A stretch of DNA of 64,000 nucleotides from positions 79,997,959 to 80,061,958 of the forward strand of contig NC_080579.1 of NCBI RefSeq assembly GCF_029962835.1. The letters run 5' to 3'. The position numbers and the translations under genes are program-made. Shown piece after piece: positions 335 to 60,988 of the stretch. Each line of letters begins with the position of its first letter. The stretch's first letter is position 1. The stretch is from Magnolia sinica. Its lineage: Eukaryota > Streptophyta > Magnoliopsida > Magnoliales > Magnoliaceae. Under the pieces are notes generated by a model, which saw nothing but the letters and a program-made list of their open reading frames with translations, searched no databases and was not told the DNA's origin.

Positions 335-2039
335 TGTCACGCCCCAAACTCAGAAATCGGATTCACAGGAATCCTGATCGCCAAATCCGGTGCCGACAGC
401 CTCCGTAGTACCCCATTCTCGGTTCCTAGCGTCCATATGCTAGATTCCGATTTTGGGATCCTACAAGGAGGATTTTCTTTTTGTACATTTAACTCGTAAT
501 AAGCATAACCACAAGATTACCCAATTCACAAAGGCAACATCATCATCACATATCCACTAATATAATCACTTGAGTACAATGCTGAAAGGGAAATACATAA
601 ATCAAAAATCAAGATCCCGAAAACCGCTGCACGCTCCAAGCTCAACACTACTGCAACCTAACATCACCTGCACGCATCTATCGTGCATAAGCTTATAGAA
701 AGCTTAGAGGGCGATGTAAGTGTGTGCACAAGATAAGTGCCAAGTATTCAACGCAATGACATAATCATACAATGTTGAAATAAGTACAAGGTCATGAATC
801 ATACATTATCAGAATAAGTAAAAATACTGACAAGTCTATGAGTCAAATAATATCAGAATACGTAATACAGATCAACTATACAAATGAAGAGTCAAAGAGA
901 GCCAAATATCAGACGCCGAGAGTATAATGCAATATGTAAATCCTGCTAAGTCCGTCTAGGCCATATAAGTGCAGAAACATAGTAACCCAAAATGCTAAGT
1001 ACTGCGGATGCAATGTGATATGTGGTGCGAATGAAATGACCATGCTGGAGTGTGAAGTCGGGATGATAGTACGTAGTATCGCAGGCTACGGGGTCCACCG
1101 TAAGGGACTTCTAACCAAACCAGTCCCATACCTAAATTTGGATAGTCAGACTCAATGTGGTAAACTCCTAATCTCAGGTTAGTCGCGCGCCCAACCGAAA
1201 TCCTGGCCATGCGAAGGTACACAACAATTAGTTGCGCACCACCATCCCGAGTGGATAGTGAATGAAACAAATGCATGAGTATGCAACTCCTACTCAATAA
1301 GTCCACATGTCAGTATGGTTCTTCTCTGGGAAATCATCGGGGTCTATTACACTCCAAACCAGATTGCCACCCCATCGCGCGCAACAAGGTGAGTGGAAGA
1401 GACCTCATTATCCGCCTGCCAATATCGGGCTCGACTCGTCGATAGCGGACCCATTCCAAGAGCTGGTTAGACTCAGCCTAGCATTGCCTCCTCCTCTAGG
1501 GCAGGTAAGGCCGTAACCCCTTCCAACTAACCACGAGACAGTGGGAGACGCGGCCTAACGGTATATGGCCCTCACGCGCTCATGCATCCACTTGGTCTAG
1601 ACATTGGAGCAACCTCTGGAACCAAGAGGGTTTAGGGACTTTCACTAAGGGATATCTATAGCACCCCATGTAGAACAGATTTTCAGTGTTCCATCTGGCC
1701 ATCCACGAAATACCTGTGGAGGCTACGACCCTGATGTCGCTAGGGCGTACAGTAATCACAAAACACAATGCAAGATGCATGAGTCATACAATCCAATCAT
1801 GCATCAATCCTGGGCATACCGTGTACTCATGTGAGATAATCTCTACCTATTAGGGAGTCTCATAACAACATGCTCAATGTCATATGCAATGGTCAACCAC
1901 ATCTCATAACAAACATGCAGATGATGCGTATGGGCATGTATCGTGATGTTATGCTGTCACATACTCATAATCGGTATCAATAACTGGCACTGACAATCGG
2001 CATTGATGATGTAGACATTTAACCAACATTACCCCCAAG

Positions 2040-3535
2040 AGCGGCCCACATAGAGCCTAACATATAGTGGACCCATTGCCTCACAAAGGGCCTGATATAC
2101 AACACCATGGGCCTCACTCAAGAGCTTAATACACATCACGATGGGCCTTTCACATGGGCCTAACATACATCACAATGGGCTCCATCGCCTGGCCCTTAAA
2201 TGCATCACAATGGGCCTCATCACATAGGCCTCGACAATCGGCCTCGGCAATCAAAAATGGCCTCGACAAACGAAATCGGCCTCAACAATCGGGATCAACA
2301 CTCGAAATCAGCCTCGACACTCGGTCTCGACAATCAAAATTGGCCCATACAATCGGTCTCGACAAATCAGAATCAGCCTCGATACTCGGTCTCGACAATC
2401 GGAATCGGCCCATACAATCGGTCTCGACAAATCAGAATCGGCCTCGATACTCGGTCTCAACGATCGGAATCGGCCCCGATACTCGGCCTTAACAATCGGA
2501 ATCAATTGATCATCAAAATCAGCAAATCAGTCACGTCGATCGGAATCGACAATCGGTCATGACAATCGAAATCAATCGATAATCAGAATCGGTAAATCGC
2601 TCACGTCAATCGGAATCGACAAGTGGTCATGACAATCAAAATTGATCGATAATCAGAATCGGTAAATAGGTCACGTCAATCAAAATCGGTCAATAATCAG
2701 AATCGACAAATCGATCACGTCAATCGGTCACGACAATCGGAATCATCGATAATCAGAATCGGCAAATCGGTCATGTCAATTGGAATCGGTCAATAATCAG
2801 AATCGACAAATCAGTCACGTCAATCAAAATCGGCAAATCGATGACGTCAATCGAAATCGGCAATCGGTCATGACAATCTAAATCGGCAAATCGGTGACGT
2901 CAATCGGAATCGACAATCGGTCATGACAATCGAAATCGGCAAATCGGTGACGTCAATCGAAATCGGCAATCGGTCATGACAATCGAAATCGGCAAATCGG
3001 TGACGTCAATCGGAATCGGCAATCGGTCATAACAATTGGAATCAATCGATAATCAGAATCGGCAAATCAACCATGTCAATCGGGATCTATTGATAATCAG
3101 AATCGGCAAATCGGTCACGTTAATCGGAATCGACATTCGAAATCGGTAAGAATGGGCTTAACAATGCTTAAGGGAAGGTCACAATGAGGACATCTAACCA
3201 TCATTGCCCATCAATGTGGACATCTAACCAACATTGCTCCCAAGGAGTGGCCCACATAAGGGATTCATATGCAACATAACGACCACACATACATCACATC
3301 AGGCCTCACCCATGGGCCTCAAATACATCACAATGGGCCACAACCCATGAGCCTCGAATACACAATAGGTGGGTCTTTCACCTGGGCCTATTACAATCAA
3401 GTGGGCCTCATACCTGGGCCTCCAATATACCTCAATGGGTCTCAACCCATGAGCCCCAAATACATCTCAATGGGCCTCGACTGATGGACCCCAAATATAT
3501 CACAATGGGCCATACCAAATGGGCTAAAACGACTA
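2040..3535. repeat. GGGCCTCA / AATCGGCA tandem arrays inside solo LTR copy 1
   Basis: From about 2213 to 3160 the sequence is an imperfect array of CAATCGGAATCGGCA / AAATCGGT(C/G)ACGT modules. The clearest period is 53 bp (GGTCATGACAATC at 2866, 2919 and 2972). It is bordered on both sides (about 2040-2215 and 3240-3530) by degenerate units built on CACATCACAATGGGCCTCA. The counterpart in the other giant LTR is 57600-59010, but with different unit lengths. Apparent ORFs here simply translate the repeat and are not genes. Confidence 0.85.
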
Positions 3536-5400
3536 CACCATTCATCCATCTATAGAGATTATTTTAGAGCATTATCCAACAATGAATCATATCAAAAGAT
3601 CATCTGGACCATACCACAAATAACCGTGGTGATAATAATTTTCATAGTTAAATTTCTAGTGAGCCCACCATAGTATTTATTTTTCCATCCATACTGTTCA
3701 TAAGATCATAAGGACCCGAACAGGGAAGGAAAACAACTATCATAATGAATTAAAACTTTTGTAACCCAAAGGGGTTTCAAGGGTGGGCGTTCAACACTAC
3801 TATTTTATGTAGGATGGTCGACTTGATATTAGATCTGCCTTCTTGTATTTTATTATTTTATTTTTTTTTAGTCTCAAGCCCAAGGACGAGCTCACCAAAT
3901 GTATTGATGGTTTGGATAAAACACATGCGGCATGGTGGGCCCACGTCCAATCTGATGGACGGCTTAGATATAGAATACATACATCAAAAAGGGGCCACCG
4001 TCCCACCATGTGGACGGTGTGGATAAGACTCACACATCACGTGTGGCCCGTCAAATTGGATGGACGGTGTGGATACAGCACACGCATCATGGTGGGTCCT
4101 CACGCACGTCAAATGGATAAACGGCAAGGATACATCACGGTGGGTTCCACCCGTAAGATGGATGGACGGCTTGGACGTAATGGCTGCTGCACCGTCTGGC
4201 AAATGGACAGTGCAGATGCAACATACATCATGGTGCGGTCCACGTAGTGGCCCACCTTAACATATATAATATAATATAATATATTATCATATAATATAAT
4301 ATAATATAATATATTACATTACATTATATTATAATATAACATGACACGAAGAAAGCCACCGTCCAGAGAGTGACGATCTGGACGGTGCATATCAGATGCA
4401 TATGAGGTGGTGGGTCCACATGTGTGGCCCACCAATATGATATTATTAATATATTATATATTATATACATTATTATATATACACAGATTTATATATAAAC
4501 ATGGGTGTGTGAAAAGGTGCAAGGGCCAGCGTTGAATGCAAAACATGCACCATAGTGAGATCGTCCAGATGAAATGAATGGACGGCTTGGATGAAATACA
4601 TCCATCAGTGGTGGCCCAATCTGCCACTGTCCAGATGGACAGATGAAGTGGATTATACATATATCACGGTAACCCCTAGCTCCTGCTGTTTGTGCAGCAG
4701 CTACAGGCCCACCGTCCATCAGATGGACGGTGGGGATCAAAAGTACATATATAGTGGGGTCCCATTTAAATGGATGGCATGAATGAAGCACACGCATCAC
4801 GTGGGACCATGCAAATGCACGGTGTGGATAATACCCACAAGACTGGCGCCAGTACACAGCCACGGATTGGTCGCCCCAGTAGATGGTCGGGCTGGATCAT
4901 CAGACCCAATCACTTGCTGACGTCATCAGTTGGGGCCCACCGCCCCTGATGGTGAAGGCATACATCATGGTGGGTCCCACGTGGGGCCCACATGATATAA
5001 TATTATATTATTAAATAATATATATACATAAATATACGACCGTACAGCATCCAGAAACGCTGGACGGACAGCCTGAAGTCTGCACATGTGCGATGTGTGG
5101 GACCCACGAGACTTCGACAACAGCAGCAGGTGCTGGCCGTCCAGCAGATGGACGGCCCAGCTACAACATGGGCACGAGGTGGGTCCACACGTGTGGGACC
5201 CACCAGCAGTGTTTGATCGAGCAGACATTTGTGTTTTTCCTTCGTCTAGGAGCACTGGAGGCTGGACGTACCAGCCCCAGCAACTGGGCCCCAATAAGAT
5301 CGGGCCCACTGATGGACAGTCTGGCTTGGTACAACACAAACATCGAGGTGGGGTCCGCACGTCCCCTGATGGATGGTTGTCCACTTGAGATTTGAATTTG
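3536..5400. repeat. TGGACGGTGTGGAT / ATGGTGGGTCC motif field inside solo LTR copy 1
   Basis: The first ~270 bp are a degraded copy of the fold-back MITE core (ATCATCTGGACC, ATCCATACTGTTCATAAG). After it, the motif GATGGACGG(T/C)(G/T)TGGAT followed by ATCATGGTGGGTCC recurs irregularly about every 50-100 bp to 5400. AT-rich TATAA repeats interrupt it at 4261-4340 and 4437-4490. There is no coding evidence. The same motifs occur in the MITEs and in the array at 26210-27260. Confidence 0.7.
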
Positions 5401-6254
5401 CTTCAATGGATGGACGGTGTGGAGACACAAATCATGGTGGGTCCTCATGGCTGTGAAGCATGGATCAAGTAGGCCACACACCAACACACATAGAGAGAGA
5501 GAAGGAGAGGAAAATCGGATGGTAGAGGGACCCCGCCACCATGGGCCCCTCTTTACAATGCATATATCAAGATAGATACCACCATATGTGGGCCCTCTAA
5601 ACATTCAAAATCATAAAAAAAAAAAAAAATCACCCACCTTAGATCTCTTCTTCCTTCTTCCGCCAATGCATGCTAGAGCTCCAAATGAACAATTTCTACG
5701 ATTGGGATCAAACTTGGATGGTGGAGATGGGAGATAGAAGTGGGCCACACAAAGCTTCTCCCATGGAGAGTCATGGATGTGAGTTGCTTGGGAGGAAAAA
5801 TGAGTGAGAGAGGTGTAAGAGAAAGAGAGAGAGATGAGTGTGATGGGTGAAAAGGTGAGTGATGGGTGTACTTTGTGTAAGAGGATGTTGACTTTAGGGG
5901 TTGCTTAAGGATGGGGTGATGTGTACTTGACATGAGGTGTGATTGATGGGATTGATGGGACATGATTTAAAATCTTTCTTAGGTTTGCAAATGCACGGTG
6001 TTTTCTCAAACTGAACACAAGCCCACATCTTGTGGCCTGGGTATCACCTCGACGCGCGAGATGCGGCATCGGAACCACGACGACTGCGCGGTCGCTAGGG
6101 TATGAGTCTTGGGTTAAGCCGACTCCGGTTTGCAGGACTCGGCTTAGGATCGCGCGCAAACGTCGGATAAGGGTCGAAGGTTACCGAAATTCGATTAGGA
6201 AGATCGCAGGAACTTACGGAACGGTACGGAGTAGGACACGGGCCTTACAGTGAA

Positions 6255-7134
6255 GATTATGAAGGATTCCATCACCCTACCATGCCGAAGGGACGATTTT
6301 GAACAACATGACACTAATTTCGCAATCTCAAATCAGGAAAAGAAGATACTCAAAGCTATTATAGATTTACTGTAATTTAAGTTACAATAAACTATTAAAA
6401 ATTGAAAGTATTCCTTAAATATCAAATTAGAATCCATGGAGTTCAACATAAATATGAATCAAAGTAATAGAAACATCTCATCATACTACAAGCTTCACCT
6501 CTTAGCCCTAACTAAGAGGTTTAGCCAACCATAGACATGATTGGATCTAAAACCCTAGAAGAAAGCATGAAAACAACAAAGGAAGAAGAAGAAAAACTCT
6601 TGGCGATGGCTTCTCCACTCTTTTTCTCCACTCCTTAAACCCTATAAGATGCCTAGGAACATCCTAGAGAGTCCTATTTATAGTTGTGAAACTCCAACTT
6701 TTGTACCTAGTTGGAAAACTCTATAAATCGCCTCAAATTTACACGGTTTGCTAAAATAGACTTCACTCTACGTTAGTTTTCTAAAATAGACTTCACTTTG
6801 CACAATTTCACAAAATGACCCAGAGTTTCAGAATATTCTTTTTCAGGACGATTTCAGAATTCCTTTTCTTCACTTCAAATTTTTGATTCTCTTCATTCTT
6901 CACTTGGTTTTCTTAGATCTTTGGCATGTGAATTCTTCAATCTTAGTCTCCTTAAATCCATCCCTTGCCTTGGTGATTCTTGATCATCAAATCCATACTT
7001 TTAGCACATTTTCAATCTAAGCTCTTAAATTCACCTTGCAACACAAACATGAGTAAAATAGAACATTAAGCATTATCATGTTTATAAAACCAAGATATAA
7101 ATGGGGGATAATATGCAATATTTTACCCTCAACA
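6255..7134 (-). mobile_element. Athila-like LTR, left copy, inner fragment
   Basis: This continues the LTR interrupted at 334 and is collinear with 23488-24373. It ends CCCTCAACA, so the element strand starts TGTTGAGGGT. That start is close to TGTTGAGACTC of the Athila-like LTRs at 11164 and 19886, which places the two elements in the same group. Confidence 0.87.
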
Positions 7135-11163: not shown

Positions 11164-12440
11164 TGTTGAGACTCAAATATTGCATAATTTTTCTCATTTA
11201 CATCTTAGTTTTATAAACATGAATTAGCTTAATGTTCTAATTTACTCATGTATGTGTTGCAAGGTGAATTTAAGAGCTTGGATTGAAAAAGGGTACTAAA
11301 AAGCATGGATTTGATGCTCAAGAATCACCAAGGCAAGGGATGGATCTTAGGAGACCAAGATTGAAGAATTCACATGCCAAAGATCCAAGAAAACCAAGTG
11401 AGGAATGAAAATCCTGAAATCGTCCTGAAAAGTGTATTCTAAAGCTTTGAAGTCTATTTTAGAAAACTGCACAGCAAGAAGTCTGTTTTAAACGAACTAT
11501 GCAGCGGGAAGTGTATTTTAGAAAAATACGTATATTTGAGGCATTTTCTAGGATTTTTCAACTTTATACGAAAATTGGAGTTTCCTACTTATAAATAGGG
11601 CTTCCTAGGGCATTCTTAAACATCATTAGAAGCATTCAAGACCAATATTTAGGGTTTTTAAAGAGTTTTTAGTTTTATTAAAGCTTTATAAGTTGTTTTT
11701 TTTATTTTAGATCTTTTCTATTTATATTTTTTTCTTCTTTCTTTCTTGTTGCTTTTTATTTCTTCAATTTAATTATGTTTTTCTACGTTTCTTCTAGCTC
11801 AAGTTAGAAGGGAAGCACATTGGTTTAATATTTTTTTAAGATTATGATGATTGATTATTTTAATGATGAGAAGAACGGTATATGCATGTTATTTATTATT
11901 TAGGATTTGTTTTTTATCCTCTTATAAGATCCATATGTTTCCATCATATGAGATCCACATTGATGGATAGGCTTACCCTAAATCAATCAAATTTCCTAGA
12001 TAGGAGAGGTTCTCAACCTGTTATATTTCTTTGATATTCATTATCCTATAGATATTGAATACTTAAAATCACTGGCGCTTGAGAATATATGTCAATGGTG
12101 CAAATTCATTATTTTCTAATCTTTTATATCATTTATTAAAATATTTAAACTGTTTTATTTTTCGATTAGGCTGACCATAGTGCTCAGATCCTAGTTGTGT
12201 TATCCAACTCATCATGATTTTGGATCATTAACTTATGTGTGGAACTTTGAAGCTTGGGTATTTTATTCAGTTGAATTACATCCATTCAAAAATTCCAAAA
12301 TCAAATCATCAGATTAATTTTTATTACTTAGTTTGTTTTGTATTTGATTTTTTTCTTCTCACAATTCATCTCCCTGTGGGATCGACCCTGTATTCACAGG
12401 ATACTACTTACGAACCTCTGCACTTGGAGGCAAGCAATCA
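11164..12440 (+). repeat. 5' LTR of the Athila-like element
   Basis: The LTR is 1,277 bp, starting TGTTGAGACTC and ending GCAAGCAATCA. TATAAATA at 11590-11597 is a plausible promoter box. It is about 20 bp shorter than the 3' LTR, mainly from a ~24-bp segment present near 20120 and absent near 11408. Confidence 0.95.
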
Positions 12441-12446
12441 AGTTTT

Positions 12447-12464
12447 TGGCACCGTTGCCAGGGA
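12447..12464 (+). other. Primer-binding site, tRNA-Asp type
   Basis: TGGCACCGTTGCCAGGGA lies 6 bp after the LTR. It matches the Athila/Calypso-type site (TGGCGCCGTTG...) except for G-to-A changes that look like deaminated CpG. Confidence 0.85.
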
Positions 12465-12784
12465 GAGACTAGATAGATTATATCTGTGCAAGATAGCTAA
12501 GGTAAGTTTTCTTCTAAGGTAAGTTCCCTTCTAAACCTTCCAAATTTTCTGTGAATTTTTTTTTTTCTCTTCTCTTTTTCTTTGAAAATAAATTCAGTTG
12601 GGTCTTTCAAGCACTAACTATGACATAAGGTTGCTCTGCTTGGGATTTTATCACCCAAGTGCTATGGTTGTCCTACAGTTGCTGTTTGATCATAAAGATC
12701 ATTCGTTGAATCTATTTTCCAGATTAGCATAGTTTAATTTATGCATTAGTTTTACTTTTATTTATTTATTTATTTTTATTTTTT

Positions 12785-12952
12785 TGTGGATTGAACCCTC
12801 ATGGTCGGCCCTGCCACCTGGGTTGTTGATTTATTTTTGCTTTGTGGACTGAACCCTCATGGTCGGCCCTGCCACCTGGGTTGTTGATTTAGTTTGCTTT
12901 GTGGATTGAACCCTCATGGTCGGCCTTGTCGCCTGGGTTGTTGGTTAAGTTT
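12785..12952 (+). repeat. Three ~58-bp tandem repeats in the Athila leader
   Basis: Units start at 12785, 12843 and 12900, each containing TGGA(T/C)TGAACCCTCATGG and CACCTGGGTTGTTG. They lie between the primer-binding site and gag and show no coding potential. Confidence 0.85.
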
Positions 12953-13129
12953 TTATTTTTATTTTAAGTATCATACTTGCTATTTGAATTAGTGGTATTT
13001 GTTGTGTGGTGTGGATAGTTTATATCCCGTTGGAGTAGGGATCAAAACAATCGACTCTTCTCCGAAGGCGGACTAGTTCCAGGCTTTGATCATTCACTTA
13101 GAAGAGGCACTTAACATCACTTAGATTCC

Positions 13130-14482
13130 ATGGCAGACCTAGTTGATAATCCAAATCCAAATCTGCCATATCCAACTATAAATCAAAAAAGAGAAAATCA
13201 ACCTAATCCTCCTCTTGAGGATGAAAATGAAGTTCATAGGAATGTGTTAAACTAACCACGGACTTTACGTGAACATCTATACCCTGAAAGATCAACTTTA
13301 CCAGCTTGCATAGTATTGCTCATACAGGGAACATTGATTTTAAACCAGGTGTGATTCAATTGATTCCTAAATTTCATGGCTTAGATTCTGAAAGTCCCTA
13401 CTTGCACCTCAAGGACTTTGAGGAAGTAATTACAACGTTACAAGTAAACAATGGCAATAGGGATGTACTTAAGCTTAGGTTATTCTCATTTTCTCTAAAG
13501 GATCGGGCCAAAGCATGGCTCAACTCTCTAAGAACTAATACTATCACTTCGTGGCAAGCCTTAAGTAGAGAGTTTTTGAAAAAGTTCTTTCCCGAGCACA
13601 AAACAAATGCACTAAAACAAGAAATCATGTCATTCTCCCAAAAGGGGAATGAACTATTTTTTCAAGTTTGGGAGCGCTTCAAAGACATTCTAATCACTTG
13701 TCCACATCATGGTTATGAACCATGGCACGTGATTGATACTTTCCGAAAGGGGCTTACCATGGATACCCGTCAGTTCATAGAGATGATGTGTGGTGGAACC
13801 TTTCTTAACAAAGATCATAATGAGGCTTGGGATTTTCTAGATATGTTAGCAGAGAATACGTAGACATGCGATGTTTCTGCTAAATCAGACCAAACTAGAC
13901 TCATTCCTAGAGAGAAAGCGGGAATGGATGTCCTAAGAGAGGAAGACAACCTTAATGTAAAATTTGCTGCATTGGTTAGAAAGGTCGAAGCCTTGGAAAT
14001 TAGGAAGGTTGATATGGTTAAAGCAAATACTTCCTTAGGTAATTTTGTACCATTTGTGGTGGTACAAACCATGACACAAAGGATTTCCAATAATCTCAGT
14101 TGTACAAAATATCACGTATGAGCATGATCAAGCAAATGCTATAAATAATTACCAAAGGTCAGTTATGCAACCAATGGGAAACACGTATAATCCAAATTGG
14201 CATAACCATCCTAATCTTAGTTGAAGGAATGGACCACAAATTAATGTGTCTAATGCACCTCAAATGCCTCCACAAAATAACTTCTTTGGGGCACCTAACA
14301 ATGCACCATATGTGCCCCTGCCAAAGCGATCATCTGTGGAGGATGCATTGACCACACTTATGAACTCTCAAGCTCAAATGAAGAAGTCTCTAATCTAATC
14401 AAATTAGGAATTAAAGACAATTGTAGCCAGGATTGAGACTCAACTAAATGCTAGGGAAAAAGGCACCCTTCCTTCTCAACCT
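13130..14482 (+). pseudogene. Athila gag remnant
   Basis: A likely ATG lies at 13130. A TAA at about 13252 and a frame change precede the main open stretch 13306-13863, which reads as a gypsy/Athila capsid: FHGLDSESPYLHLKDFEE, then LFSFSLKDRAKAWLNSL and FPEHKT...KQEIMSF. A TAG at 13861 breaks it. A second open stretch (13924-14121) continues with a coiled-coil-like segment. A Cys/His region follows in another frame (TGTGGTGGTACAAACCATGA, about 14055), equivalent to an Athila-type CxxCGG-NH nucleocapsid motif. Gag would form the particle shell in the cytoplasm; this copy cannot make it intact. Confidence 0.85.
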
Positions 14483-15606
14483 ATGTCAAATTCTCGAAAC
14501 ACACATTTCATTGGAGACTCAAATCCAAGTGAGTTACATTATGAACAAGTTAAGGTCATCATTACCTTGAGAAGTGGAAAAGAGGTTGATAACAAGATAA
14601 TGCAACCGGTAGAAATACCGGAGGATGAGCCATTGTCTCAAGAAAAGGATGAACCGGCTATGGTTCAAGAGCCGCAACAGCAAAAAGATAAAGAGACTAA
14701 GTCATATGAGCCTCCAATTCCGTTCTCATCTAGACTTCAGAATCTAACTGTCCCCATGAAATATCAAGAGGTGTTGGATGTGCTTCAAAAGGTTAATGTC
14801 AATATTCCTCTGCTTGATGTCATTAGACAAATTTCATCATATGCTAAATATCTCAAGGACTTGTGCACTATAAAAAGAAAATTAAATGTGCACAAAAAGG
14901 CCCTCCTTACTGAGAAAGTGAGTGTTATCATTCAACAAAGGGTTGCACCCAAATACAAAGACCCGGGAAGTCCCACTATTCCTTGTATTATTGGAAATTT
15001 TCAAATTGAGCATGTTTTGCTAGATTTGGGTGCAAGTGTCAACTTAGTACCTTATTCGGTTTACAAAAAAAGGGGTTAGGTGAGTTTAAACTAACCACGA
15101 TTACATTCCAACTTGCTGACTGCTCTATTAAGGTACCAAGGAAAATTTTAGAGGACGTGCTAGTCCAAGTGGAGAAATTCTACTTCCCCATGGATTTTAT
15201 TGTACTAGACAATAAACCATGTGTAAATGCTAGCACTCAAGTTCCCATCATTTTATGCCGCCCATTCCTAGCAACTTCAAATGCAATCATAAATTGCAGG
15301 AATGGAATGATGAACTTGTCTTTTGGTAACATGACTCTAGAGCTAAATATTTTCAATATATGTAAGCAGCCCATTGATAATAATGAGATCCATGAGCTGA
15401 ATTTCATGGACCGCTTGATGGAAGAAGAGGAATTGGAACCTAGTCTGACTGAGGAATTGATTCAAGTCATTAGAGACTTGAAAAATTCTGATTTAGAAAA
15501 ATTGCTTGCTGAAATTTCTGATGATAATGAGAGCACTACCACCCAGGACATTGGTATGTACCAATGGAGACCGTGCACTCAAATTCTATCTATCGAGGAC
15601 TTGTGA
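14483..15606 (+). pseudogene. Athila gag C-terminus and aspartic protease remnant
   Basis: The first stretch (14483-15079, 198 aa) runs through an acidic, Gln-rich linker. It ends in the retropepsin region IEHVLLDLGASVNLVPYSV, where the catalytic triad reads DLG rather than the usual D(S/T)G seen in active proteases. A stop at 15077 and a frame change separate it from 15157-15606. That second stretch holds the C-terminal half of the protease, with IILCRPFLATSNAIIN (cf. the ILGRPFL motif of the family), followed by an acidic spacer. The protease would cleave the gag-pol polyprotein. Confidence 0.85.
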
Positions 15607-15743
15607 CCTCTGCCATCACCAATCAATATTCCAAATCTTGATTTAAAACCACTACCAAATGAACTTAAGTATGTATACTTAGGTGAAAATAAAACTTATC
15701 CTGTGGTGACTCTTCATTTTTAGAGAAGGATCAAGAGATTAAA

Positions 15744-16916
15744 TTGTTGAAAGTTCTAAGGGACCACAAAGGAGCCTTGGGCTGGACCATTTCTGACATC
15801 AAAGGTATAAGCCCTTCCATATGCACCCATCGGATCCACCTCGATGATGACGCCAAATCAATTAGACAACCTCAAAGGCGTCTCAATCCAAACATGATGA
15901 AAGTTGTAAAAAATGAAGTGATCAAATTATTGGATGTAGGAATCATCTACCCAATATCCGATAGTGTTTGGGTAAGTCCAACTCAAATAGTCCCAAAGAA
16001 ATCTGGAATAATTATTGTGTAGAATTCTAATAATGAACTCATACCAACACGTGTCACCACTGGTTGACGTGTTTGCATTGACTATAGAAAATTAAACCAA
16101 GTCACAAAGAAGGACCATTTTCCTCTACTATTTATTAATCAAGTTTTAGAGAGGGTAGCAGGTCACTCCTTCTATAGTTTTCTTGATGGATATTCCGGAT
16201 ATAACCAAATAGAGATAACCCTAGAAGACCAAGAGAAAACCACGTTCACTTGTCCATTTGGCACGTTTGCTTTCAAATGGATGTCATTTGGATTGTGTAA
16301 CATCCCAGCAACTTTCCAACGATGTATGTTAAGTATTTTTTCAAATATGGTTGGAAAGTTTCTTGAGGTTTTCATGAACGACTTCTCTGTATTTGGGAGT
16401 AGTTTTAAGGAATGCATCAACAATTTATCTCTTGTCTTGTCCAAGTGTGAAGAGAAACACCTCATCTTAAATTGGGAGAAATGTCATTTCATGGTTCAAA
16501 AGGGAATTGTTTTAGGCCATGTTATCTCCAAAAATGGAATCGAGGTAGATCGCTCAAAAGTTGACATTATAACTAATCTACCTATCCCCCGAACTGTTAG
16601 AGATATTGGATCACTTATAGGGCATGCTGGTTTTTATAGAAGATTCATCAAGGACTTTAGTGTCATTACTAGACCCTTGACTAATCTTCTTGAAAAGGAT
16701 GTTCCATTTAAATGGACAGATGAGTGTGCAAGTGCCTTTAATAAAATTAAATCATCCCTTACCACTACACCTATCATGCGTTCACCAGATTGGACACTTC
16801 CTTTTAAACTAATGTGCGATGCAAGTGATTATGTCATAGGGGTTGTTTTGGGCCAAAAGAAAGATAAACGGCCCTACGTTATTCACTATGCGAGTAGAAC
16901 TCTAAACTCGGCCTAA
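15744..16916 (+). pseudogene. Athila reverse transcriptase and RNase H start, remnant
   Basis: The N-terminal part (15744-16022) ends at TAG 16020. The palm resumes about 16064 with VCIDYRKLNQ, then SFLDGYSGYNQI and FGTFAFKWMSFGLCNIPATF, and is open 16281-16914. The metal-binding motif reads FMNDFSVFG. The first Asp of the usual F/YxDD pair is Asn, which would abolish polymerisation independently of the stops. The connection domain (VLGHVISKNGIEV, HAGFYRRFIKDFS) and the first RNase H motif (KLMCDASDYVIGVVLG) follow. The ORF ends at TAA 16914, in frame with the next one. Confidence 0.92.
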
Positions 16917-18534
16917 GTGAACTACTCGACAACTAAAAAAGAGTTACTTGTAGTAGTTTTTGCTTTGAATAAGTTTAGGTCCTACTTGCTGGGATCCAAA
17001 GTAGTCATTTTCACAGACCACTCGACTTTAAAATATTTGTTATCTAAGAAGGATGCAAAGCCGAGACTTTTGAGATGGATCCTCGTACTCCAAGAATTTG
17101 ACTTAGAGATAAAAGATAAGAAAGGAATAGAAAATGTAGTAGCCGATCACCTTTCTAGATTGGTGTTAGATGATTCCACTGAGGAGATGCATATTCAGGA
17201 CACTTTCCCTGATGAACAATTATTTATGATCTCCAAATTGCCATGGTATGCAAATATAGTGAACTATCTTGTAACGGGAAAAATGTCATATCATTGGAAG
17301 TCACAAGATAAGAAGCGTTTTGAAACCGAGGTTAGGAGCTTCTTCTGGGATGACCCGTATTTATATAAATATGGGACTGATCAGATTTTTAGACGTTGTG
17401 TCCCAGAGGATGAAGTTCAGAGTGTTATTTCCTTTTGTCACATGGAAGCATGTAGTGGCCATTTTTCTGCTAAGAAAACCACTGCAAAAATCCTGCAGTG
17501 CGGTTTTTACTGGCCCACCATATTTAAAGACACTCATGCTTTCTGTGTTGCTTGTGATAGATGTCAAAGGTTGGGAAGAGTGTCCCGGCGCAACATGATG
17601 CCTTTATCCCCAATTTTACCATTGGAGATTTTTTATTATTGGGGTATTGATTTTATGGGCCCATTTCCATCTTCTTTTGGATTTCTTTATATATTGGTTG
17701 GTGTGGACTATGTTTCAAAGTAGATTGAGGCAGTTCCAAGTAGGACCAATGACAACAAAGTGGCCATACGATTCCTCAAGGAAAATATTTTTTCTAGATT
17801 TGGAACTCCAAAAGCCATCATTAGTGATAGTGGGTCTCACTTTTGCAATAGGACATTTGAGGCTTTGATAAAGAAATATGGCATCAAGCATAAAGTGAGC
17901 ACCACATACCACCCACAAACGAGTGGACACGGTGAGATTTCTAATCAGGAAATCAAATACATTTTAGAGAAAACTATAAGGCCAGATAGGAAGGATTGGT
18001 CCCTCAGACTATCCGACGCTTTATAGGCTTATAGGACTTTATAAGACCCCAATTGGAATGTCTCTATACAGATTAGTGTATGGGGAGGCTTGTCACTTAC
18101 CTGTGGAATTGGAACATAAAGCCTACTGGGCAATAAAGAAATTAAACTTTGATATGGATCAAGCAAGTGGGCAAAGGAAATTAGAGTTGAATGAATTAGA
18201 GGAGCTGAGAAGAGATTCTTATAAAAATTCTAAAATCTACAAAGAGATAACCAAAGCTTTTCATGACAAAAATATCCTAAGGAAGAATTTTGAACCTCAA
18301 CAAAAGGTCCTATTGTACAATTCCTGTCTCCAGTTCTTTCCGGGAAAGTTAAGATCAAGATGGATAGGCCCCTTCATTGTGAAGAATGTTTATACTCATG
18401 TGGTTGTTGAAACTGAAAATTCACGTAATGGCAATGTGTACAAGATTAATGGTCAGAGATTGAAGCCTTATGTGGAAAACTTTCATTTGGAAGAGGAGTC
18501 TTTCCCTCTTCATGAGCCAAAATATTCAGATTGA
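16917..18534 (+). pseudogene. Athila RNase H and integrase remnant
   Basis: In the same frame as the RT, 16917-17723 gives RNase H ([35 protein letters not shown]). It then gives the integrase HHCC finger (HMEACSGHF ... [11 protein letters not shown]) and the start of the catalytic core ([12 protein letters not shown]). A TAG at 17721 replaces a codon of the YVSK-IEAV block. The core continues in the same frame at 17760-18026 (KAIISDSGSHFCN, TTYHPQTSGHGEISNQEI). A stop at 18024 and a frame change lead to the C-terminal domain 18058-18534 ([33 protein letters not shown]). Integrase would join element DNA to the chromosome; this copy is broken at least three times. Confidence 0.92.
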
Positions 18535-23035: not shown

Positions 23036-24373
23036 TGTTCTCAACCCCAAGTGTATGGTCTCGATGTAGTAATAATCCTGGTGAGACCAAGGTCGAATCC
23101 ATTGGGATTTAAACTTGTACGTTTCTGAAATTAACTAGAAGTAGAACTAGAAGAAGATGTGAAACTAATTCTGAAGTATTTGAGAGAGTAATTGTGAATT
23201 AAGTAATTAAAACTAAGAATTTAAAGGTGGGAACTAGGGTGTCAAGGATCCACTTGTAGTGATCAGGGAGCCCTCTTGCTTGATTCAAGTAACACAATTA
23301 GAATTGGAGTCCTATCTTATTCAATTGGAAAATATATCAATAAAACCAAATCTGAACTTCCATTGACCTGATTCTCAATAAAGGAGAACTATGATAATTG
23401 GCAGGGATTCCATCACCAAACCATGCGCGGGAGACAATGGCAAACAACAGGATTTACCAATCCCATAATCTCAAAGCAGGAGAATTGTGAAGGTTAGGAA
23501 GGATTCCATCACCCTATCATGCCCAAGGGACGATGGTGAACAACATGACTTACTAATTTCACAATCTCAAATCAGGTAAAAAAAAAATACTCAAAGCTAT
23601 TACAAATCTACTGTAATTTGAGTCACAATAAACCATTAAAAACTGAAAGTATTTCTTAAATATCAAATTAGAATTCATGGAGTTCAACATAAACATGAAT
23701 CAAAGCAATAAAAACATCTTATCATGCTACAAGCTTCACCTTTTAGCCCTAGCTAAGAGGTTTAGCCAACCATAGATATGATTCGATCTAAAACTCTAGA
23801 AGAAAGAATGAAAACAACTAATGAAAAATAAGAAAAACTCTTGGCGACGGCTTCTCCAACATTTTGCTTCACTCCTTAAACCCTAGAAAATGCCTTAAAC
23901 ATCCTAGGGTGTCCTATTTATAGTTTTGGAACTCCAATTTTCGCACCTACTTGGAAAACTCTAGAAGTCGCCTTAAAGTTCTGTAGTTTGCTAAAATAAA
24001 CTTTACTCTGTGCAGTTTCCAAAATAGACTTCACTCTGCGCAATTTTACAAAATGACCCAGAGTTTCAAAATATGTTTTTTCATGACGATTTTAGGATTC
24101 CTTTTCTTCACTTCAAATATTTGATTCTCTTCATTCTTCACTTGGTTTTCTCGGATCTTTGACATGTGAATTCTGTAATCTTGATCTCCTAAGATCCATC
24201 TCTTGCCTCGGTGATTTTTGAGCATCAAATCCATGCTTTTAGCACCCTTTTCAATTCAGGCTCTTAAATTCACCTTGCAATACAAACATGAGTAAAATAG
24301 AACATTAAGTATTATCATGTTCATAAAACCAAGATATAAATGAGAGATAATATGCAATATTTGACCCTCAACA
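23036..24373 (-). repeat. Athila-like LTR, full copy (5' LTR on the minus strand)
   Basis: The LTR is 1,338 bp, starting TGTTCTCAACC and ending CCCTCAACA on the plus strand (TG...CA). It matches 1-334 plus 6255-7134, which shows the first copy was split by an insertion. The right flank is ATATT; its partner TSD lies outside the window. Confidence 0.9.
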
Positions 24374-44100: not shown

Positions 44101-44853
44101 AAAAACTTTGACACGTGTTGCACTTTACATCTGAGTCCCTCCTAATTCAAGCCTTAAATAATTGTACACGAGACATATATTAACTTAAAATTTGACAATT
44201 AAATTATGGACTGCAATTGCTAACTCACAATGCCAAAATCAAATTACTTAAATAGTTTTAATTATTAATTTGTGAGTTTTTATTTTTTAAAATAGGACCT
44301 TTTGATTTTATTTTATTTTTTTATGATTCACTATCCAATAAATGTCCACCAATTTATAAGTGGGATAATGACAATAAATAACATGAATTTGAGGCTGATT
44401 TGGAGAATAGATTGGTCCTCCAAGTCAGCCCCAAATTGGTAACGCCATCTACCTAAATTTAATTTCATTTTTTTTTAAAGAACTATAGGGAGAAATAATA
44501 TCAAGTTGTTAAGTATATAAATTACATATTTAAAAAAAAAATTTAAATATATGAATTTTGTAGTCAAATTCAAGTTACCTGGTTAAAAAATTAATCAGAC
44601 AGTCCGATACAACTTCTCACCAAATAGTGGACCGTTACACCACCATAAACATGTTCCAATTTATAAATGAATGCATATTTGGAATGCTTAGAATATTTCG
44701 GATTTAATCAATATTTTTTCATATTTTTTTGGCAAAAAAAAAATTTTGCGCCGTTACGGGCCGTTACGCCTCCGTATCGCCGTTACGCCCCCGTATCCGT
44801 ATCGGTTTCGGAGGGTACCGTTACGCCAACCGATACCGATACGGGACACCTTG
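44101..44853. other. Intronic AT-rich stretch ending in a GC-rich MITE fragment
   Basis: No gene. 44745-44845 holds CGCCGTTACGGGCCGTTACG and CCGATACCGATACGGGACAC, which looks like one end of another small palindromic element. Its other end was not found; the junction with the duplicated block follows at once. Confidence 0.45.
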
Positions 44854-45554
44854 AACCCAACCCGACCAGAATTCCAACCCGTATTCCTCTATGCTTGACT
44901 CAACCCGACCTGACCTAACCTAAACACTGCTTATTCTCAACCCGACCTGAATTTGCTCAACCTTAACCCAACCAGTTTCTGAATCGGGTTGGTTTTTTCC
45001 AACTCGATCGAGGGCCTTGAAAACCCAACTTGACCATAACTTGGGTTGTGTCTATCAGGTTTGAGTTGACCCTAACCCAAGTTGCAGCCCTAATGAGAAG
45101 TGTGAAATAGGAAGCTGCAAAATATATATTAAAAAAAAAAAATGATAGTGCAACACAATATAAAAAGCCCCAAATGGGCTAGACCTGAATCCAGTTGGGT
45201 GTGGGCACCCATCAAATGGCCACAATTGAAATCATTAGCCCACTAATGGATTGCCCACTGTGAATGGACAGTCCAGATTGTTGGAGCACTGGGAATGGAT
45301 TAGCAAACTGTGAATGGATAGTCCAACTCATTGGACCATGACGACTTGATTAGCCCAATGCATTTTAAACAGATTTGAGACCAGACTGAACCTTAATTAT
45401 TAGATGGGTCTAAAAATGGACCCAGCTCCATTTAAATCTAGTCAGAAACCTTGAATAACCATGTATCTGCGCACTGTTTTAAACAGTTTGGAAACAACAG
45501 ACCCAAACGCAACTCAAGTATTAGATGGGCTACAAATGGACCCAGTTGCATTTA
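44854..45554 (+). repeat. 702-bp direct duplication, copy 2
   Basis: It is identical by eye to 42794-43495 except for one missing C (AAACACTG versus AAACACCTG). Homology stops abruptly at both ends. Confidence 0.95.
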
Positions 45555-53923: not shown

Positions 53924-54542
53924 GGAAGCGGATTGGCCGGTGTAGCTAACATCAGCTATATAGCTACTATATTGACCTCAGCAAGTTCTGTTGGTCTGAT
54001 AACGAGGTATGTGATATATCCAAACTGTCCATTCATTTGCTGAGCTCGTCTTAAGGCTTGATATGAAAAATAAGACAGATATAACTATCAAGTGGACCAT
54101 ACTGCAAAAGGCAGTAGGGGATTGAACATCTACCATTGAAACCCTTTTTGGGGTCACAAAAGTTTTGGATCAATATGAAATTTGTTTTTCCTCTTCATTT
54201 AGGTCTTTGTGACCTTATGAACAGATTGGATGGAAAATAAACGTCGTGGTGGGCCCTGCGAATTGTTTAACGGTGAAAATCATTATCTCTGCTACTATTT
54301 GTGGTGTGGTCCAAATGATCTTTGGATATGATTCAGTTTTTGAATAATGCTCTAAAATGATCTCTAAAAATAGATGAACGGTGTAGATATGATAAATACA
54401 TCACTGTGGGGCCGTGTAACATGATCTCCTTTGAACCATTCATACAAGTCGGAGCTCGAGGAGCGTCAGTGCTCTTCTTCGCACGACACGTAGCTACAGA
54501 AGCTATATAGCTAGTGTCTGGTACACCAGCTAATCTGCTTCC
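53924..54542. mobile_element. Fold-back element with GGAAGCGGATTGG ends
   Basis: The terminal inverted repeats GGAAGCGGATTGGCCGGTGTA (53924-53944) and the complement of 54522-54542 match at 18 of 21. Next inside are palindromic AGCTATATAGCT boxes on both sides. The middle (about 54000-54416) is a copy of the MITE core. No coding capacity. Confidence 0.75.
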
Positions 54543-54744: not shown

Positions 54745-55699
54745 TCATCTCTCTCTTGGTCCGGCAATGGTAATGGGGAGACATCGTAAGTGACAGTGGG
54801 AGCGAGGAAGAGAGACAAAGGGGTCTCTCGCGGGCGTGAGAGAGGAAGAGAGAGACCGCGAGAGAGGGGAAGAGTGACAAATGTGAGGAGCCGAGAGCCC
54901 CAAACTCCAACCCTAACGTCAGTTAGCAAAACTAACGATTGATGCACTCTCGCACGTGTCTTTCACTTGCACGGCACCCGACAAATTTTTGCACGATACA
55001 TCGAGGTCGCACCCTGTGAGACTCGTATCCTAGCCTATATTGTTCCGTAGGTTTCCGCGATCCTTCTCGACGAATTTCGGCAACATGCAACCTATGATCG
55101 ATATTTGCGTGCGATCCTAAGTCATATTCTGTAGATTTGAGTCGGCTTAATCCGAGACTTATACCATTGGGACCGCACCGTCGCCGCGGTTCCAACACCG
55201 TGTCTTGCATACCGATCCGATACCCTGGTTAGGAGATGTGGGCCCGCGTTTATTTCAAAGAAAACGCTGCACGTTTGCAATCCCAAGAGAATCTTTACAA
55301 CATGTCTCATCAATCAATCACTTAATCAATCAATCAATCACCTCATGTCAAGTACAAGAGCAACCCATGCTTTCTTTCTCCACAAGTCAAGCAATCTACC
55401 CCAAAAGTCAACAAATCACTCACCTCACATCCATTACCCATCACTCTCTCTCCTTACAACCCTCTCTCTCTCTCTCATTTCTCGAACACAAAAAAATCTC
55501 AAGCAAAAGTGGTGGACGTCCAACCATCCCAAGAGAGAAAAGTGCATATGTGTGACCCACTTCTCACCCCAAAATTCTTCATCCTAGCCATTCATCTCTC
55601 ATCATCTTCCATCAAAGTGAAGCACGAGGAGATCGGCGTTCCATCGGACCAAGAAGATCGAACGGTGGGTGTTTCATAGGGATAAATTTCATGTTTTTA

Positions 55700-57600
55700 T
55701 GATGGGCCAAGTGGGGCCTACCGATTGATGGTATGGATCTCACTTTGTACCCTAGATGTGGCCGATGACCCACCTTGATTATCATGATCATTCCATGATG
55801 GGGCCATCATGATGTTTACTTTTCTAGATTTAAAAAGGTCATCTAGACTTTCCATTTTGGTGGAGAAGTAATCTCCACCGTTGATTTTTGATTTGGTGGG
55901 CTCACATGTAATGGGACCCACTTGATTTATGTTGTGATGTATGAAAGGGAGGGCCCATAGTGCCGGGGTCCTCCATCTCACATGTCCCTTTCTCTTTCTC
56001 TCTCTCTCTCTTTATCTTTTTATGTGATGATGTAGAGGTGTGGCCCACTCGGATGGACCCCACCTTGATGTGTGTCTTATCTACACCATCCAGCCATTTG
56101 GTGGCCCATCTGTAGCACGTCTGTAGGTACGGCCCACTTTAGAAATGTGTTGTATTCAAACCGTCCAGTGTCCAGGGATGCTGGACGTGGTCTGTGAAGT
56201 GTGAACAGACGCTAGATGTGTTGAATAAAATAAATAAATATCAGTTTGATTTAAGCCTTGGGGTGGGCCACTTATGTAGGCTCCACCTTGATGTATGAAC
56301 CCAATCCACGCCGTCCATTCCATTCCCTAGCTCATTTTAGACGTAGAGCTGAAAAATGGACCCAACCGATTTTCTGGCGGGCCATAGCATAGAAAATATT
56401 GATTTTTACCGTTAAAATCGACTAGGACCCACCTTGCGCCAAAACATACTGCATATTGGGCTTGTTTGGTCTGTCTTGAGCCATGGAATGCAACGGTTGT
56501 AGTGGATTCTTTCAATGCGGGCCTCACCTGTGAAAAACCATGAAATTTAAGATTTTTCAAAAAAAAATACAAGCCACAGCAGCAGGCGTTGCTGCTCGTG
56601 CGCTGTGAGCGGACGGGCAGGGACCACGGTCCCATCCGTGGGCCCCACCATGATGTGTGTTGATCATCAACACTGTGCATTTGTTGGGTCCCCTCTAACC
56701 AGTGGACCACCCCAAAAATCAACCATATACGATGCTCAGGTGGCCCACGTCACAGGAAACAATGTGATATTGAACGTCTGCCTTTGAAACCCATTTAGGT
56801 TTTTCTCAGAGGTTTTAGATTATTATGAAATTTGTTTTTCCCCTTAATTCAGGTCTTTGTGACCCTATGAACGGATTGGATGGAGAATAAACATTATGGT
56901 GGGCCCCACGTGGGACCCACCTCTATGAAGTGGATTGGTTGGATTACTGTACAACAGCTATATAGCTGCTGTATTTACGCCAACAAGTTCAGTGGGTCAT
57001 CAAACCGTCTAGATCATGGGTCCCACGTGGGACTCCATGATGTATGCATTCCATCTATGTTGTCCGTCCATGTACACGGACGTGGGGCCCACCTTGATGG
57101 ATGTCTTGCATCCACATGTGTGGGGCCCCACCTTGATTTATGTGTTTAGTCGTCCATCCAGACGATTCGTGTGGTGAACCCACCTTTGATGTGTTTTGAC
57201 CCAAGTCGTCCACCCGTTGGCGGGCTCTTCTTTAAGCTTAAGACAAAATGAAGCAGAATCAATTCTCCGGTGGGCCACATGCGTGGACCTCACCCTAATG
57301 TAAGTGTTTTATCCACTTCATTCGTGGACTGCACCATGATGTAAGTGTTGTATCCTCACCGTCCAGTGCAAGGACGATGGGACTCCACTATGATGTATGC
57401 GTTTCTCCACCCCGACCATTCATTGGACGTGGCCCCACCATGGCAGCATGTGGGGCCTACCTTGATTTAATGTATTGCATCCACACCATCCAATCCATGG
57501 ACGGTGGATGGGGATTGACTAGAGTACCTCACACCTGCTGGATAGCTGAGGTTTTGACGCCAGCCAGTTCTGTGGGGCCCACTTGATTTATGTGGTGTAC
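55700..57600. repeat. ATCCACACCGTCCA / GGTGGGCCCCAC motif field in solo LTR copy 2
   Basis: An irregular series of GGCCCCACCTTGATGTATG and ATCCACACCGTCCA-type motifs, with partial MITE-core copies at about 56285-56560 and 56640-56910. It mirrors 3536-5400 in the other giant LTR. Confidence 0.7.
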
Positions 57601-59015
57601 TCCATGCCGCTCACCTGTTTTTCATCCATGACCGTCCATTTATGCAGCCCGCTATGATGAATGTATTGTATATCTATGCCGTCCATTGATGCGACCCATT
57701 TGATATATACATGAGGCCCATGTGATTAGGCCCACCTTAATATATTTATATATAAGGCTCACTATTGAGGCCCATCTGGATGTATTTGTGGCCCATCCGT
57801 TGAGGTCCATCTTGATATACATGAGGCCCACATTATGCGGCCCATTTGATGTATCTTTGGCCCATGAGCGGGGCCCACCTGGTGCGTGTTTATGGCCCAT
57901 TGATACGGCCCATTTGATGTATTTGAGGCCTAAATATGTAGCCCATTTGATGCATATGGGACCCATGTGCAAGGCCCGCCTGTTGTGTATGACGCCCATT
58001 ATCATGTACGATAGGCCCATTTGGCGAGGCCCATTTGGTAAAGCCCAATGTAGTGTGATGGGGCCCATTTGATGAGGCCCGAGGTAATGTATTTGGGGCC
58101 CATGGGTTGAGGCCCATTGTGATGCATTTGGAGCTCATGGGTAGAGGCCTATTGTGATATATTTGAGGCCCATGGGACGTGGCCCATTATGATATATTTT
58201 CGACCCATTTGGTAAGGCCCATTGTGATATATTTCCGACCCATTTGGCAAGGACCATTGTGATGTATTCAAGGCTCATGGTTGAGGCCCAGTGCAATGTA
58301 TATATGACCTGTTAAGTTGTGTATGAATTCCTTACATAGGCCACTCCTTGGGAGCAATGTTGGTTAAATGGCCACATTATTGGGCAATAATGGTTTAATG
58401 TCCACATTGTGACCTTCCCTTAGGCCTTGTTTGGCCAATTCTGATTTGTCAAGGCCAATTGTATAGGCCGATTCTGATTTGTTGAGGCTGATTGTATAGG
58501 CCGATTCTGATTTGTCGAGGCCGATTCCGATTGTCGAGGCCGATTATATAGGTTGATTCCGATTGTCGAGGCCGAGTATCGAGACCGATTCTGATTGTCG
58601 AGGCCGATTGTATAGGCCGATTCCAATTATCAAGGCCGAGTATCAGGGCCGATTCTGATTTATCGAGGCGATTGTATAGGCCGATTCTGATTTGTCGAGG
58701 CCGAGTATCGAAGCCGATTCTGATTTGTCGAGGCCGATTGTATAGGCCGATTCCGATTATCGAGGCCGATTGTATACGCCGATCCGATTGTCGAGGCCGA
58801 GTATCGAGGCCGATTCCGATTTGTCGAGGCTAATTGTATAGGCCGATTCAGATTGTCGAGGCCGAGTATCGAGGCCGATTCCGATTTGTCGAGGCTAATT
58901 GTATAGGCCGATTCAGATTGTCGAGGCCGAGTATCGAGGCCGATTCTGAGTGTCGATTCAGATTGTTGAGGCCGATTTCGATTGTCGAGGCCGATTGTCG
59001 AGACCTATATGATGT
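57600..59015. repeat. GGCCCATTTGATGTAT and GAGGCCGATTGTATA arrays in solo LTR copy 2
   Basis: 57700-58310 has ~35-45-bp units of AGGCCCATTTGATGTATTTG. 58434-59010 has units of GAGGCCGATTGTATAGGCCG followed by ATTCTGATTTGTC. A 65-bp unit is perfectly repeated from 58796 to 58861. Confidence 0.88.
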
Positions 59016-59224
59016 ATATGCGACCTGTGTTTGATGCCCATGTAATTTATATGCGGCCCATACTTGAGGCCCATCGTGATGTGTATTAGGCCCTTGTGTG
59101 AGGTCATGGGTCCACTATATGTTAGACTCTATGTGGGCCACTCCTTGGGGGCAAAGTTGGTTAAATGTCCACATTGTCGAGGCTGATTGTCGATGCCGGT
59201 TATTGATACCGATTATGAGTATGT

Positions 59225-59548
59225 GACAGCAAAGCATCATGATATATGCCCATACGCATCATCTGCATATTTATTATGAGATGTGGTTGACTATTACATA
59301 TGTCATTGGGCATGTTGTTATGAGACTCCCTGATAGGCGGAGATTGTCTCACATGAGTACACGGTATGCGCAGGATTGATGCAAATGACAGCATAACATC
59401 ATGATACATGCCCATACGCATCATATGCATGTTTGTTATGAGATGTGGTTGACCATTGCATATGTCATTGGGCATGTTGTTATGAGACTCCCTGATAGGT
59501 GGAGATTGTCTCACATGAGTACACGGTATACGCAGGATTGATGCATGA
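59225..59548 (+). repeat. 162-bp tandem duplication in solo LTR copy 2
   Basis: Units starting GACAGCA(A/T) at 59225 and 59387 share CATGCCCATACGCATCAT and GAGATTGTCTCACATGAGTA. The other giant LTR has a single copy of this block (about 1810-1975). Confidence 0.88.
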
Positions 59549-60988
59549 GTGGATTGTATGACTCACGCATCTTGCATTGTGTGTTGTGATTACTATATGC
59601 CCTAGCGACATCAGGGTCGTAGCCTCTACAAGTATTTCGTGGATGGCCAGATAGGACACCGAAAATCTGTTCTACATGGGGTGCTATAGATATCCGTAGG
59701 TGAAAGTTCCTAAACCCTCTTAGTTCCAGAGGTTGCTCCAACGTTTAAACCGAGTGGATGCATGAGCACACGAGGGCCGTATACCGTTAGGCCGCGTCTC
59801 CTACTGTGTCGTGTCGGTTGGAAGGGCGTACGGCCTTACCTGCCCGAGAGGAGGGGGTAATGCTAGGCTAAGTCTGACCAACTTGAGGAATGGGTCCACT
59901 ATAGACGAGTCGGGCCCAATATTGACAGAAGGATAGTGAGGTCTCTTCCACTCACCTTATTGCGCGCGATGGGGTGGCAATCTGGTTTAGAGTGTAATAG
60001 ACCCCTGTGATTTTTCAAAGAGGAACCGTACTAATATGTGAACTTATTAAGTAGGAGTTGCATACTCATGCATTCATTTCATTCACTATCCACTCGGGTT
60101 GGTGGTGCGCAATTAATTGTTGTGTACCTTCGCATGGCCAGGATTTCGTTTGGGCGCACGACTAACCTGAGATCAGGAGTTTACTACATTGAGTCTGACT
60201 ATCCAAATTTAGGTATGAGACTGGTTTGGATAGAAGTCCCTTGTGGTGGACCTTGTAGCCTGCGATACTATGTACTATCATCCCGATTTCACACTCCTGC
60301 TTGGTCATTTTATTTGCATCGCATATTGCATTGCATCCTCAGCACGTAGTATTTAACTTACTATCTCCATATTACATAGCTAATCTACATTGCTTCCTTA
60401 GTATATGCTATTGATTTATTATAATTGCATCGCATAGCCTAGATAAGGTTGATGGTATTTATGGGCCTATCAGCATGTTTTTCGTATTATTCTGATATTG
60501 TATAATTATGGGCTTGTCAATATTTTCGCTTACTTTGATTACTTTGATATTGCTTACTTGGCACTTACCTTGTGCACACACTTATACCACCCTCTAAGCT
60601 TTTTATAAGCTTATGCATGATAGATGCGTGCAGGTGATGTTAGGATGCAGCCAATCTGAGGCCGGAGCGTGTGGTGGAACTTTTGGAGTTTTCTTTGATA
60701 TCTTCATATTGTATTTCCATTTCAGCATTATACTCAAATGATTATATTAGTGGATATGTGGTGATGATGTTGTTTTGTGATTTGGTTATGCTTGTAATTA
60801 TGATCCATTACAAAAAAAAAAAATCATACTGAAAATCCTCCTTGCAGGATCCCAAGATCGAAATCTAATGCATGCGTGCTGGGAACCGAGAATGGGGTAC
60901 TACGGAGCCTGTCGGCACCGGATTCAGCGATCGGGAATTTTGTGAGCCCGGTTTCCGAATTTGGGGCGTGACACACCCACTTCGCAGT

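Follow-up and report, generated by a model that had tools for sequence, protein, structure and literature searches.

The window analyzed herein is a stretch of 64,000 nucleotides of Magnolia sinica DNA (NC_080579.1, positions 79,997,959 to 80,061,958), and the elements in question are two long terminal repeats (LTRs) near its two ends, termed A and B. LTR A is on the minus strand at 335..6249 (5915 bp, with its 5' end at 6249), and LTR B is on the plus strand at 55015..60973 (5959 bp). Both run from TG to CA. In its own orientation, A begins with TGTAAGGCCCG at 6249 and ends with GGGGCGTGACA at 335, and a perfect target site duplication (TSD), GTGAA, is found on both sides at 330..334 and 6250..6254. 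B begins with TGTGAGACTCG, ends with the same GGGGCGTGACA, and is flanked by a perfect CACCC at 55010..55014 and 60974..60978. The coordinates, the TG...CA ends, and the 5-bp duplications given by an earlier note on this DNA were all seen in the window sequence.

Two solo LTRs of one family

The insertion of A was shown independently by an empty site inside the window. The flanks of A (1-334 joined to 6250-7134) have a paralogue without the insertion at 23158..24373 on the plus strand, with 90.0% identity over 1211 aligned bases. The alignment runs through the junction of the joined flanks, and one single copy of GTGAA is present at that site.

No direct repeat was found between the first and the last 1500 bases of A or of B at E<=0.01, so the shorter inner terminal repeats that the earlier note named as grounds for rejecting an LTR were looked for and are absent from both units. 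Sites resembling a primer binding site (PBS), or a polypurine tract (PPT) followed by an LTR start, were also absent from the inside of A and B. A Pfam scan of the seven open reading frames of at least 120 aa inside A and B returned one match below the cut-off and a retrotransposon domain in none of the seven. These results agree with the statement that the units carry neither gag-pol nor a second LTR, and the open reading frames were rejected as genes on the Pfam result.

The alignment of A with B, proposed in the same note, gave 90% identity over 970 bp and 77-81% over other parts of the 3' half, whereas a 276-bp segment toward the 5' end reached only about 72%. By this sequence comparison, A and B are members of one family. 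The TSDs, the empty site of A, the alignment, and the paired element described below bear out the description of A and B as oppositely oriented solo LTRs, each near 6 kb long, from a single family. That A and B are solo LTRs is as good as certain.

A paired element with a short core

The window's own assembly (Magnolia sinica, 1.84 Gb, 127 contigs) was searched with LTR A as the query. The best 40 of 53,452 first-look candidates were scored, and longer stretches of 20-30 kb were read around nine places. One element with the LTR on both sides of an internal region, as sought by the earlier note, was found at C5:69.6 Mb. Its two LTRs, 6211 and 6100 bp long, point the same way and enclose an internal region of 413 bp, and the whole element measures 12.7 kb. 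GTGAA is present on both flanks as the TSD, and the terminal CA of the last LTR is now GA. The first LTR ends with GGGGCGTGACA, followed by GAAGT and then by the PBS TGGTATCAGAGC, the tRNA of which we take to be initiator Met. The 3' part of the core includes a stretch reading NFEDEIFIRWGE, then the PPT GGTGGGGAGAGC, and then the LTR start TGTAAGTCCCG. The core content is the PBS, the pol tail, and the PPT; gag and the catalytic domains are gone. The two LTRs are 97.74% identical, with 138 differences in 6100 aligned positions (Kimura two-parameter distance, K80, 0.0231); CpG transitions make up 42 of these differences, a pattern expected where DNA is methylated.

The short core was found repeatedly. 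Another copy with a PBS, at C5:72.25 Mb, contains a 425-bp core that is homologous to the 413-bp core and 82.2% identical to it. At a third place (C4), a shortened LTR end appears to lead into this pol tail, followed by the PPT and the LTR start. When the 413-bp core was used as the query, the best 40 of 4248 first-look candidates were scored; all 40, the query's own place included, cover at least 405 bp at 86-100% and are spread over 17 contigs. Long cores cannot be counted by this search because it was seeded with a short core. Two of the cores, at C3:61492577 and C3:61498837, are on one strand and 6260 bp apart, in the manner of a tandem array. The near-absence of an internal region from the paired form, seen in both cores read, had been left out of the earlier reading. 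The LTRs at C5:69.6 Mb differ by 2.3%, versus 18% between the two cores read, which makes it most likely that the coreless state was passed on over several rounds of transposition.

Single copies and their frequency

Nine single LTRs with both ends were found in the 20-30 kb stretches, and a perfect 5-bp TSD is present in eight of them (CATGT, TGGAG, ACTTC, AAATT, GGTAT, AATAG, CTAAC, and ATGGG). The ninth (C14) is shortened to 4.0 kb and has an altered 3' end, and its TAGCT repeat is displaced by one base. Six of the nine are full-length and uninterrupted, measuring 5.86-6.26 kb; when A, B, and the complete uninterrupted copies measured are taken together, the LTR length is about 5.4-6.3 kb. 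The closest relative of A among the scored candidates, 90-94% identical by piece, is the GGTAT copy at C10:67.49 Mb, a solo of 7.4 kb that has extra sequence and a change of TG to GG. At C1:140065576-140077238, the AAATT solo is interrupted by an oppositely oriented solo of the family with the TSD ACTTC.

Further copies were read at the 3' end, where the LTR end was present within three mismatches in 20/20 and the PBS in 1/20. Thirteen of these 20 copies were then read at the presumed 5' end as well; among the 12 of them without a PBS, five had a perfect TSD, three had a match of four of the five bases, one had a 5' end without a TSD, and three had no 5' end in the fetched piece. TSDs are thus present in other copies of the family, the absence of which had been named as evidence against the solo LTR description.

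Genome-wide, the exact 14-base LTR 3' end was counted 13,116 times (2 for the reversed control), and 997 of these ends run into an exact PBS within 10 bases (control, 0). In a relaxed sample, the PBS was present in 2 of the 33 LTR 3' ends examined, all of which belong to high-scoring relatives of A. If each PBS is taken as one paired element, the other ends per paired element are about 11:1 at face value and about 4.6:1 if half of the PBS sites are mutated. This indicates that single and truncated copies together outnumber paired copies by roughly 5-11 to one. The comparison of solo and complete copies suggested by the earlier note was thereby obtained, and its view that the survival of the solo form is unusual was not sustained, as solos are common in this family. 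A regression over fifteen plant genomes gave an intercept of 2.69 solo LTRs per full-length element (PMC7251063), with which the ratio of this family is not strictly comparable because truncated copies, and possibly Del relatives with shorter LTRs, are counted in it.

Among the 95 PBS junctions listed on C1, four same-strand neighbours within 7 kb were found, versus 0.26 expected from uniform placement, and none of 2000 random sets reached four. Two of the spacings, 6342 and 6370 bp, are those that an LTR and a short core would give together; the other two are 5934 and 3259 bp. These C1 arrays are putative, as deduced from junction spacing. Unequal recombination between LTRs would be expected to yield both products, arrays as well as solos.

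A pol-bearing relative and the affinity to Del/Tekay

The C5 stretch with the paired element also carries, on its minus strand, integrase-like sequence that continues into the pol tail known from the short core, the PPT, and a family LTR start at 26234. In its matching parts, the LTR of this relative has 73-80% identity to A and B. One of its pieces matched Pfam SH3_Tf2-1 with E 1.1e-20, and three of the four pieces were without a match in that scan. When the integrase tail was compared by sequence with solved structures, the matches were two armadillo-repeat chains, which were taken for chance, and a weak match to 2m2l. The 3' part of the 413-bp core aligns to the tail of the relative with 73% identity across 90 bp, rising to 92% in the final 39 bp. 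By this alignment, the most likely origin of the short core is a loss of all sequence from the leader to the pol tail.

Several features are shared with the Del/Tekay chromoviruses of the Ty3 group. These are the 5-bp TSD and the tRNA-type PBS TGGTATCAGAGC adjoining the 5' LTR. The integrase of the relative is followed by a tail with a weak chromodomain-like match, below the Pfam cut-off. The LTR end GGGGCGTGACA has GGG at -8 to -10, which is the rule reported for a U5 attachment (att) site of type A (PMC4029996). The LTRs are long, and their 5' part is variable in this family, as is reported for many Del LTRs (PMC4029996). The end motif, the PBS, the TSD, and the pol tail, used here in place of a reverse transcriptase (RT) tree, make a Ty3, Del/Tekay-like family likely.

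The LTR length is outside the described range. LTRs of 1143-4831 bp were reported for 2432 Del elements from ten angiosperms (PMC4029996), and 3005 +/- 902 bp was reported for Del/Tekay in Setaria (PMC6527191). The family measured here, with LTRs of about 5.4-6.3 kb, exceeds the Del range, which is a reported range and not a strict definition; the earlier note had placed an LTR near 6 kb at the extreme for plants. Unlike Del/Tekay elements, the paired copies read are without gag and catalytic pol, and their LTRs and those of the window are about 5.9-6.2 kb long.

The LTR interior

A non-coding block is conserved in the LTR, at 990..1959 on the minus strand in A and at 59386..60354 on the plus strand in B, and is 90% identical between the two. 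The block was compared in 200-column bins over the last 2 kb of 12 copies, with the C4 copy cut at an approximate boundary. Within the block of about 1 kb, identity is mostly 85-97% in bins, even between subfamilies, and the adjoining bins drop to 52-80% against B. The close relatives of A have high identity throughout the last 2 kb, in the block and its surroundings. No open reading frame is present in the block, as stops occur in all six frames of B's block, and the varied sites per codon phase (81, 93, and 106 of 323) show a slight imbalance and no clear codon periodicity. A coding role was rejected on these two grounds. Gene conversion between A and B was also rejected as the source of the 90% identity, because the remaining copies in the comparison resemble B's block to about the same degree, and the 970-bp block therefore gives no sign of exchange between A and B.

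AATCGG-type short tandem repeat arrays were detected by a repeat scan in the middle of LTR A, at 2078..3131 on the minus strand. The corresponding tandem-repeat region of LTR B, at 58059..59002 on the plus strand, was located by the repeat scan and the A-B comparison. A tandem duplication of 162 bp (93% matches) is present at 59224-59545, at the edge of the block in B. Just outside B, a fragment at 54069-54386 is 77.5% like part of LTR A and also shows partial similarity to B and to 43491-43668; it is a dispersed repeat common with the LTR.

Other features of the window

Two ordinary Ty3 elements were found between A and B. The first, at 32334-38212 on the minus strand, has 685-bp direct repeats that are 99.1% identical and gag and pol frames at 36542-37594, 34052-36358, and 33197-34045; it is probably a recent insertion. 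The second, at 11164-21182, has 1.3-kb direct repeats with about 91.5% identity, gag at 13306, and RT, RNaseH, and integrase zinc domains at 16281-17723, and the sequence around A is partly related to its LTR. At 42794-45554, a direct repeat of about 702 bp, 99.86% identical and with copy starts 2.06 kb apart, may represent a further non-autonomous LTR element of small size, whose core would be about 1.36 kb. A match to Rfam snoR71 at 13609-13715 (43.2 bits, gathering threshold 40) is antisense to the gag frame and is perhaps due to chance. An open frame with an F-box domain (E 2.5e-5) is found at 30600-31082, with an imperfect palindrome at 30081-30507 just upstream.

Interpretation

We consider it highly probable that A and B are solo LTRs of a Del/Tekay-like Ty3 family of Magnolia sinica with a short-core form that is about 97% LTR and presumably mobilized in trans and prone to become solo. 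In this form, a core of about 0.41 kb that holds the PBS, the last pol codons, and the PPT is enclosed by two LTRs of about 6.1 kb. The proteins for its movement presumably came in trans from a relative that carries pol and has a similar LTR. So long a homology, with hardly any spacer between the copies, would favor frequent LTR-LTR recombination, by which most insertions would collapse to solos, and tandem LTR-core arrays would be the reciprocal product. Single copies are the common form probably because the 6.1-kb repeats surround a remnant core of only about 0.4 kb. The parents of A and B could have been short-core or pol-bearing, and the two cannot be told apart.

Several points weigh against this interpretation. 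The paired cores read in sequence number two, and the elements among them with a checked TSD number one. The 997 PBS junctions were counted by pattern, irrespective of core type, and the core search covers its best 40 candidates only. The 13,116 ends include truncated copies and are not a count of 6-kb LTRs, because the 14-base pattern may occur in Del relatives with shorter LTRs; the exact pattern also misses mutated PBS sites, which inflates the ratio. Gene conversion between LTRs can raise LTR-LTR identity (PMC7251063), so that 97.7% identity need not mean a recent insertion, and the argument for an inherited coreless state could be weakened by it. In the 425-bp core at C5:72.25 Mb, one piece of 62 bp also matches the integrase tail of the relative farther upstream, at 79%, and one clean deletion does not account for this match. 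The tail of the relative, as a read-through piece with X at stops, reached only E 0.02 and 15.3 bits against Pfam Chromo (cut-off 25.1), and among the sequences read there is no intact pol-bearing element with complete 6-kb LTRs.

A doubtful but serious alternative is that A and B are solos of an ordinary gag-pol-bearing Del/Tekay family, of which the short-core elements are a side branch with a common LTR. An integrase-bearing fragment joined by the PPT to the family LTR does exist, and the closest copy to A is also a solo, so that the form of A's parent is unseen. However, both PBS-bearing copies with cores read are short, and the best core matches, 40 of 40, are complete short cores, though the search was seeded with one.

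The two LTRs are opposite in orientation, about 49 kb apart, and share one block of 970 bp at 90%, as would suit a functionally linked pair, such as the ends of one rearranged locus or a large inverted structure. This is very improbable. Each unit has its own perfect TSD, the insertions are independent because the TSDs and the target sequences differ, and the block is about equally alike between B and other copies. Such pairs are also predicted by density: the ends expected per 64 kb are 0.46 from the exact count, or 0.91 if as many again are assumed to be mutated, and the probability of two or more is 0.08-0.23. Two such LTRs in 64 kb are unremarkable, and the special standing given to the inverted pair in the earlier note is not supported. 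No sign of inversion, fold-back, or recombination of the pair was seen, and no dedicated test was made. Finally, a complete non-autonomous element of 5.9 kb with short inner terminal repeats, which the length alone would permit, is refuted for practical purposes by the absence of a direct repeat between the ends and of a PBS or PPT inside, and by the paired element at C5:69.6 Mb, in which the unit is present twice around a PBS-PPT core.

Relation to known elements and significance

Large retrotransposon derivatives (LARDs), such as Sukkula and Dasheng, are large non-autonomous LTR elements with a non-coding core of several kb; in Sukkula, the LTRs are near 5 kb and solos are numerous. The family here is likewise large and non-autonomous, with long LTRs and many solos, but its core of 413-425 bp is far from the long core of a LARD. 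Terminal-repeat retrotransposons in miniature (TRIMs) have only a PBS and a PPT, no coding capacity, a core under 0.5 kb, and LTRs of a few hundred bp. The core here is also under 0.5 kb with a PBS and a PPT, but LTRs of 6.1-6.2 kb and a whole element of 12.7 kb do not fit a small element. The coreless form is best placed as a variant, with giant LTRs, of non-autonomous elements already described. The chances are about even that it represents a LARD in reverse: a long-lived, trans-mobilized family that is nearly all LTR, in which the core is reduced to the PBS, the pol tail, and the PPT, the LTR contains the cis signals for packaging or transcription (the conserved block of about 1 kb being a possible site), and nearly all insertions collapse to giant solos.

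In plant tandem LTR-retrotransposons, LTRs and internal regions alternate, as in the putative arrays here, and Tekay is reported as enriched among those of rice (PMC11899658). The pipeline described in that paper set 500 bp as the minimum for the internal region, and arrays with a 0.41-kb core would not reach it. One reference survey used LTRs of 100-6000 bp spaced 1000-20,000 bp apart (PMC6317226). Elements with an LTR of about 6 kb and a core of 0.4 kb can escape such routine annotation limits. In titles and abstract starts of the open-licence literature, no family with 6-kb LTRs and a 0.4-kb core and no report of Magnolia solo LTRs was found among the matches listed, and the words 'solo' and 'Tekay' are absent from the main text of the Magnolia sinica genome paper (PMC10999834).

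The size of the LTR and the missing core are the interesting part of this finding, and not the survival of solos or the inverted pair. The conserved non-coding LTR block is a place to look for cis-acting signals. Solo-LTR frequency falls with spacer length. It rises with LTR length, according to Du et al. 2012 as cited in PMC7251063. The family is a natural extreme in both respects, with about 6 kb of homology, a 0.4-kb spacer, and at least 40 copies beside ordinary Ty3 elements in one genome, and its coreless giant-LTR shape offers an explanation for the solo frequency.

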